In this document: positions 44,013 through 47,319 of the stretch, in pieces
Layout: every line of letters begins with the position of its first letter
How positions within the stretch are numbered: position 1 is the first letter of the stretch
Assembly (NCBI GenBank): GCA_016778675.1
Contig: JADHPA010000003.1
Location: 1-47,319, forward strand
Length of the DNA stretch: 47,319 nt
Direction of reading: 5' to 3'
DNA from: Candidatus Pelagibacter sp.
GTDB lineage: Bacteria > Pseudomonadota > Alphaproteobacteria > Pelagibacterales > Pelagibacteraceae
Translations under genes and position numbers: made by a program
The notes under the pieces: generated by a model
Database searches by the model: none
The model's input: only the letters and a program-made list of their open reading frames with translations
What the model was told of the DNA's origin: nothing

Positions 44013-44335
44013 CATACCTAGTAAATGAAAAATGTATTAAATGTAAATTAATGGACTGTGTTGAGGTTTGCCCTGTCGATTGTTTTTACGAAGGAAAAAA
44101 TATGCTTGTAATTAAACCGGAGGAGTGTATAGATTGTGGCGTTTGCGAGCCAGAATGCCCTGTTGACGCTATAGTAGCTGACACTGAGTCTGGTAGCGAA
44201 AAATGGCTTGAAGTAAATACTAAGTATTCAGAAATCTGGCCGAATATAACAGTTAAAAAAAATCCTCCTGAGGATAATGAAAAATATAGAAATGAAGAAA
44301 AAAAGTACGACAAATATTTTGGCGAAAATCTTTAA
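44009..44335 (+). CDS. fdxA: ferredoxin FdxA
   Basis: [21 protein letters not shown] ... [16 protein letters not shown] Fe-S cluster motifs. Confidence 0.95.
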
Positions 44336-45185
44336 AAAATCTACTAAGAAAAAAACTAAAAAGAAAACTGCTGCGAAGGTGGTAAAAAAAGTCTCAAAGC
44401 CAAAAATAAAAAAAGTTAAAAAAGTAGTTACTTCAAAAAAAACTAAAGTTATTAAAAAGACTACAGTAAAAATAAAAAAAAATTTAAAAACAATTTCAGT
44501 AAAAACTGCACCTCAAAATATTGAAATTAAGACTGATAATTTAAGAATTTCAAAAAGTAATGAAATTAAACCTGAAATTATAAAGGTAAAAAAACAAGAA
44601 ACTGAAAAAAAAGAATACAAAGTAAAAGACTATGTTGTGTATCCAAAACATGGCGTTGGTCAAATTACTGAATTTAAAAAAATCAACATTGGTGGAATAG
44701 ATGTTGAAACTTATGTCCTTAAATTTGAAAAAGATAAAGCTAATGGAATGGTGCCAGTAAATAAACAGTCTCACCTTAGACCACTTGCAACCATCAACCA
44801 AGTTAACAAATGTATATCCATTTTAAAAAGTAAACCAAAAGTCAAAAGATCAATGTGGAGTAGAAGAGCCCAAGAGTATGAAGCAAAAATATCTTCTGGT
44901 AAAATCTATGAACTTGCTGAGGTAGTAAGAGATTTAAATAAAGGTGATGATTTGATGGTTGATCAATCTTATAGCGAAAGACAACTTTTTGAAAAAGCAT
45001 ACGAAAGAATTTTATCTGAATTTCAAATAGTAATGGGTGTATCACTAGAGGATACACAGAAAAAACTAGATAAGGCACTTAAGAGAAATCTTGAAGGACA
45101 AGCCAAGGCTGCTGTAGCAGCTCCTACTAAAGCTGTAGAACCTGATGAGCCTGAGGCTGATCCAATTACCGATACTGAGGATTAA
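44277..45185 (+). CDS. CarD family transcriptional regulator with long lysine-rich N-terminal extension (start 44277 or 44292)
   Basis: CarD core [27 protein letters not shown]...[13 protein letters not shown]; residues 1-~110 very Lys-rich. Confidence 0.88.
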
Positions 45186-45254: not shown

Positions 45255-45344
45255 CTATCTTTTTCTTCTCTTAGCTTTTTTAGCTTTTTTAGCTTTTTTC
45301 TTAGTTTTCTTTTTAGCTTTTTTAGCTTTTTTTCTTGTAGCCAT
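45255..45344 (-). CDS. 29-aa Lys/Ala-rich highly basic peptide (histone-tail-like), not in ORF track
   Basis: Manual translation MATRKKAKKAKKKTKKKAKKAKKAKRRKR*; SD AGGGAG at 45351-45356, 6 nt before ATG; own promoter and terminator. Confidence 0.75.
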   Translation of the reverse strand: MATRKKAKKAKKKTKKKAKKAKKAKRRKR

Positions 45345-45366
45345 CTTTAGCTCCCTGTTTAAGTTA

Positions 45367-45387
45367 AACGAATCAAATTGATTCGTT
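45367..45387. promoter_or_regulatory. perfect 10+1+10 inverted repeat AACGAATCAA-A-TTGATTCGTT in the leader of the basic peptide gene
   Basis: Read directly; begins a few nt downstream of the predicted transcription start on the minus strand. Confidence 0.8.
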
Positions 45388-47250: not shown

Positions 47251-47319
47251 TGGTGGGCGAAGAGAGAATCGAACTCTCACTTCTTGCGAAACACGATTTT
47301 GAGTCGTGCGCGTCTACCA
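47251..47319 (-). tRNA. tRNA-Leu (anticodon CAA), 5' part outside window
   Basis: Reverse complement TGGTAGACGCGCACGACTCAAAATCGTGTTTCGCAAGAAGTGAGAGTTCGATTCTCTCTTCGCCCACCA; loop CTCAAAA, long variable arm, CCA. Confidence 0.93.

Follow-up and report, generated by a model that had tools for sequence, protein, structure and literature searches.

The minus strand at positions 45255..45344 of this 47,319-nt stretch of Candidatus Pelagibacter sp. DNA (hereafter the window) carries a reading frame of 29 codons that was previously unlisted. It raises the question of whether so short and so basic a frame is a gene and, if so, what its product does and what sets its amount.

A conserved gene convergent to carD

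We confirmed that this frame is a real, conserved gene. Read from 45344 to 45255 with its stop codon, it encodes MATRKKAKKAKKKTKKKAKKAKKAKRRKR, and a recount of the translation (16 K, 4 R, 6 A, 2 T, and 1 M) agreed with the Lys/Ala/Arg composition claimed in the original prediction. The expression signals listed there were also found on the same strand: a Shine-Dalgarno (SD) sequence AGGGAG at 45356-45351, 6 nt before the ATG; a -35 element TTGACA at 45425-45420, conserved across the order; a palindromic leader, CGAATCA-ATT-TGATTCG (CGAATCAATTTGATTCG), at 45385-45369; and an intrinsic terminator, a GC-rich hairpin with a T-run at about 45236-45196, placed between the convergent genes and supported by its conservation and its fold. 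The -10-like hexamer TAAAAA (about 45402-45397), 17 nt after TTGACA, is weak but conserved in the alignment. As the terminator follows the frame and the next gene is convergent, a leader peptide acting in attenuation was rejected. That neighbor is carD (44277-45185, plus strand; PF21095 and PF02559), whose product has a lysine-rich N-terminal extension of about 80 residues with a histone-tail-like composition before the CarD domain; the start chosen for carD overlaps an upstream ferredoxin-like gene. At the far edge of the window, a tRNA gene is cut (47254-47319, minus strand; RF00005).

Because of its low complexity, the peptide used alone in protein searches retrieved only near-identical copies, and carD was used as an anchor together with the pattern of the ribosome-binding site (RBS). 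Eighty named SAR11 loci were collected in this way, bringing the total to 83, of which two end too close to carD to be scored. A frame of 22-35 aa restricted to K/R/A/T/P lies at the same place, convergent to carD, in all 81 scorable loci of the genus, and GGGAGCTAAAG precedes it in every one; this is far beyond chance. The coding sequences comprise 78 distinct versions that give 51 distinct peptides of 20-35 aa. Between nearest neighbors among these 78, codon differences were synonymous in 71 cases, exchanged residues within K/R/A/T/P in 33, and led outside this set in 0, when random single changes would be expected to fall outside it in 53% of cases and to create stops in 12%. All length changes keep the frame. 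The comparison across SAR11 that the original prediction had proposed thus found the gene present at the carD locus with its K/A composition, its RBS, and synonymous variation, and the frameshifts or RNA-only conservation that would have refuted it are contradicted by the in-frame length changes and the 71/33/0 codon pattern.

The leader appears to behave as a hairpin at the 5′ end of the mRNA rather than as a plain operator, a reading that we disfavor. When identical leaders of the genus are counted once, 65 have an A-U pair flanking CGAATC...GATTCG, 53 a G-U pair, 4 a G-C pair, and 1 no pair at this position, and loop lengths run from 4 to 6 nt; both the pair pattern and the variable loop speak against a pure operator. 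The spacing from TTGAC to CGAATC is 34 nt in 99 of 123 leaders, and the same order (TTGAC[A/T], 32-36 nt, CGAATCA) recurs in other genera and in a second family within the order; several genera other than that of the window form the stem from the same 5′ arm in another register, TCACTTAA...TTAAGTGA. Because it lies close to the expected transcription start, the hairpin probably shields the mRNA at its 5′ end.

Complementarity between the rhtB loop and the peptide start site

The original prediction stands with respect to an autonomous, conserved Lys/Ala/Arg gene with promoter, leader hairpin, and terminator; what it missed is that the RBS of this gene is the apparent target of a small RNA, rhtB (RF01814). 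When the RBS was searched for with mismatches allowed, most genomes of the genus showed one additional site, CGGGAGCTAAAGATG, and this site falls inside rhtB, on the opposite strand. The rhtB of Ca. Pelagibacter ubique was described by Meyer et al. in 2009 as a bulged hairpin, followed by a U-run in about 50% of cases, and no target was named (PMC2704228). Its core is a 47-nt stem-loop with an outer stem GATAGTCC...GGACTATC, an inner stem AGCC/GGUU, and a 13-nt loop, AUCUUUAGCUCCC, which is the antisense of GGGAGCUAAAGAU. This loop is exactly antisense to the SD, spacer, and start of the peptide gene; in the window, the corresponding text is GGGAGCTAAAGATGGCTA (45355-45338, minus strand), which spans the SD, spacer, start, and first codons and is complementary to the rhtB loop over 14-18 nt.

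In all 51 genomes where both loci could be read, mRNA positions -11 to +3 are fully paired with rhtB, within an uninterrupted helix of 14-18 bp, and the duplex energies computed range from -31 to -38 kcal/mol. Position -1 is G-C in 46 genomes and A-U in 5 (mRNA A for G, sRNA U for C), with 0 mismatches. Two events are required to explain this change on the carD tree, although the test does not reject a single clade (p-AU 0.34); we therefore score it as one or two compensatory events and not five. Position +9 is paired in 45 of the 51 genomes (A-U in 25, G-C in 19), and position +4 is mismatched in 22. The loop of a related genome gives -37.6 kcal/mol against the peptide RBS of the window, whereas the strongest of the 236 other candidate starts reaches -24.0 kcal/mol and the strongest site anywhere else -27.5 kcal/mol. 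The extended, conserved complementarity and the compensatory change are those of a trans-acting antisense sRNA and its target. We strongly infer from these patterns that rhtB pairs with the peptide mRNA at its RBS, and with this RBS as the apparent rhtB target, the locus would therefore also be one half of an sRNA-mRNA pair. In a deep lineage (G159; L361, L347), both the peptide, MAAKRKAAKKSKKKAKKRSR, and the rhtB loop, CTCTCGG, have diverged, and the loop still pairs, with one G-U. Three viral contigs (L366, L367, and L368) carry a phage gene starting MANNLEAVIPKVLAMGMM with RBS text identical to that of the window, probably by coincidence; the RBS text in viral contigs, seen at these three phage genes and at one internal site, is unrelated to the peptide.

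RF01814 exceeds the Rfam gathering cut-off (55 bits) in 226 of 397 genomes of the order, with scores up to 90 bits, and is all but confined to the genus of the window, whose peptide RBS carries GCTAAAG. In the other genera, no hairpin with the outer-stem pattern was found, the weak matches in g8, g9, and f2 lack the loop, and the peptide RBS differs in genera without rhtB. No match above the cut-off was found in the assembly of the window itself (G000, 78% complete), where a weak RF01814 match at 45317-45383 (plus strand) is simply the antisense of the peptide RBS; the congener G007, whose peptide is near-identical, has a full-score rhtB (L231). The RNA was likewise undetected in some genomes of the genus, a few of them more than 90% complete (e.g., G174 and G148). 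In many loci, an extended -10-like element, TGATATTAT, lies about 7 nt before the rhtB stem, and only 19 of 70 loci have a T-run directly after the stem; the -10-like element and the T-runs support the annotated strand and suggest that rhtB has its own promoter. Upstream of the stem, AATGCA is also conserved in some loci (L198-L239 and L318-L345), with a TGnTATTAT-like element following after about 17-20 nt; the two are possibly an unusual -35 and an extended -10. In several genera without rhtB (L134, L137, L139, L142, and L149), the peptide leader contains a CTCC a little ahead of the GGAG in the SD, and the leaders of the second family (L151-L159) read CCTC...CCC...GGGGGGAG; the CTCC, which is missing from the rhtB-bearing genus, is a candidate cis anti-SD that could hide the SD.

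Peptide function and alternative readings

What, then, would rhtB control? At the same locus, other genera of the family hold versions of 21-58 aa (e.g., MAKRRKKAKK...RRKR), and the second family holds proteins of 80-99 aa that contain KAAPKKKK repeats and begin with a sequence of the type MEELKxIFAKAKKKAKKK. The lysine/alanine/proline repeat composition is clear in these long relatives, whereas the short forms are mostly K/R/A/T. The likeness to the lysine-rich tails of bacterial H1-like and AlgP proteins that had been proposed is strengthened by the long versions in the sister family. Since these H1/AlgP-like versions and the 21-58 aa forms share one locus, the peptide looks like a size-reduced H1-like protein, in which a lysine-rich ancestor was cut to a bare peptide, the homology of these low-complexity versions resting on synteny and leader and not on alignment. 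The opposite course, in which a short form grew longer in the second family, is also conceivable because the tree is not rooted for this trait. Pfam and NCBIfam models gave no match to the 29, 58, 85, and 91 aa forms, PHROG models and chains of solved structures none to the peptide, and the carD neighbors at 28 loci in other alphaproteobacterial families include no such gene. A literature search of mainly open-access papers found nothing on the peptide, nor on RF01814 beyond the 2009 description.

Taken together, we consider it likely that the product of the locus is a polycationic, H1-like peptide and that trans-acting rhtB blocks its translation, which would set the amount of peptide. A short mRNA carrying the 5′ hairpin, the strong SD, and the terminator would be transcribed from TTGACA. 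In the genus of the window, the 13-nt loop of the trans-encoded rhtB would cover the SD, spacer, and AUG; ribosome binding would thus be blocked, and the amount of peptide would therefore be set post-transcriptionally. The pairing may also trigger decay of the mRNA. An SD free of rhtB would allow translation of the peptide, which is probably disordered and would bind nucleic acid by charge, nucleoid DNA first and RNA second. The repression is suggested by the site that is covered, and the nucleic-acid binding by the composition and by analogy with AlgP-type tails. A bolder version, in which a nucleoid-compacting micro-histone gated by rhtB forms a post-transcriptional switch between growth and dormancy and acts like a toxin when released, is rather doubtful.

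It is also possible, but unlikely, that the peptide is a ribosome or RNA accessory factor that binds rRNA or mRNA instead of DNA, like the tiny basic ribosomal proteins. Its size and charge would fit, and a composition limited to K and R cannot separate DNA from RNA binding. However, none of the solved chains, ribosomal ones included, matched it, a length that varies between 21 and 99 aa and the lack of a fixed motif are unlike a buried ribosomal protein, and the KAAP repeats of the long forms are of the AlgP/H1 type. Quite unlikely, in our view, is a type I toxin-antitoxin-like pair, in which excess peptide would inhibit growth by nucleoid collapse or ribosome poisoning and rhtB would be the antidote RNA. 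A small peptide with an antisense RNA over its RBS is indeed the type I layout, and so basic a peptide could be harmful in excess. Nevertheless, the usual type I toxin is a hydrophobic membrane peptide, whereas the 51 distinct peptides here contain only K/R/A/T/P/S/M, and the peptide gene is kept throughout the order, including in genera without rhtB, and thus appears independent of this RNA.

We regard as very unlikely that the peptide serves as a binder of polyphosphate or another polyanion, as does AlgP of Pseudomonas aeruginosa, which has KPAA repeats and an H1-like composition, sits on polyphosphate granules, and affects their spacing (PMC9239181); the short forms are without the helical N-terminal domain of AlgP. 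Similarly small is the chance that the shared RBS text is a protein-binding or translation-enhancing element common to both loci and not a pairing site. The text GGGAGCTAAAGATG is itself a good RBS, and three phage contigs use the same one, but in rhtB it lies on the strand opposite the predicted transcript, in a conserved stem-loop with an upstream -10, the base at -1 changes in both loci together, and genera without rhtB have lost the text. That the locus encodes no protein, only a noncoding RNA in which an A-rich frame arose by chance, as its highly conserved leader and short, terminated transcript might suggest, is scarcely credible, being already contradicted by the substitution pattern (K/R/A/T/P only), as well as by the in-frame length changes and the long coding relatives.

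The main result is that an orphan RNA family, the rhtB motif, whose role was not described in 2009, has gained a specific candidate target. In the largest SAR11 genus sampled, the start site of the peptide pairs exactly with rhtB, which suggests that the RNA switches the peptide off. Our analysis also adds a SAR11-wide protein gene that has no family model and whose product tryptic proteomics would miss. It describes, for a single streamlined order, a size series from H1-like proteins of 80-99 aa to peptides of 20-35 aa and a putative sRNA regulator restricted to one genus, and it points to specific sRNA control in SAR11, thought to have few regulators. If the bolder version is true, a micro-histone gated by rhtB operates in bacteria that rank among the most abundant groups of the ocean.

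Comparison with known systems

The type I systems tisB/istR-1 and dinQ/agrB use a trans-encoded antisense RNA and, as here, combine a very small protein with an antisense RNA that overlaps the RBS. However, the SAR11 peptide is cationic and not hydrophobic, and its gene is conserved without the RNA in other genera. Alphaproteobacterial sRNAs of the CcsR or "cuckoo" type carry an anti-SD, a C-rich hairpin loop complementary to the SD, and the rhtB loop has such a C-rich sequence as well, but it also covers the spacer and AUG of one gene and is the single loop of a 47-nt stem-loop. The N-terminal extension of SAR11 CarD is lysine-rich like the peptide, but it is fused to an RNA-polymerase-binding protein, and the relation is one of adjacency. 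The C-terminal domains of AlgP and PhaF share the low-complexity, K/A/P-rich composition seen in the KAAPKKKK-type repeats of the 80-99 aa relatives, and fragments of AlgP-type tails and KPAA peptides bind DNA (PMC9239181); the form found in the genus differs in having no AlgP-type N-terminal domain, few or no prolines, and no family model match. Finally, RF01814 is the partner RNA itself, with matches over the cut-off and the same bulged hairpin as in the 2009 description (Meyer et al. 2009, PMC2704228), which gave it no target, whereas its loop is here found to be antisense to the peptide RBS.
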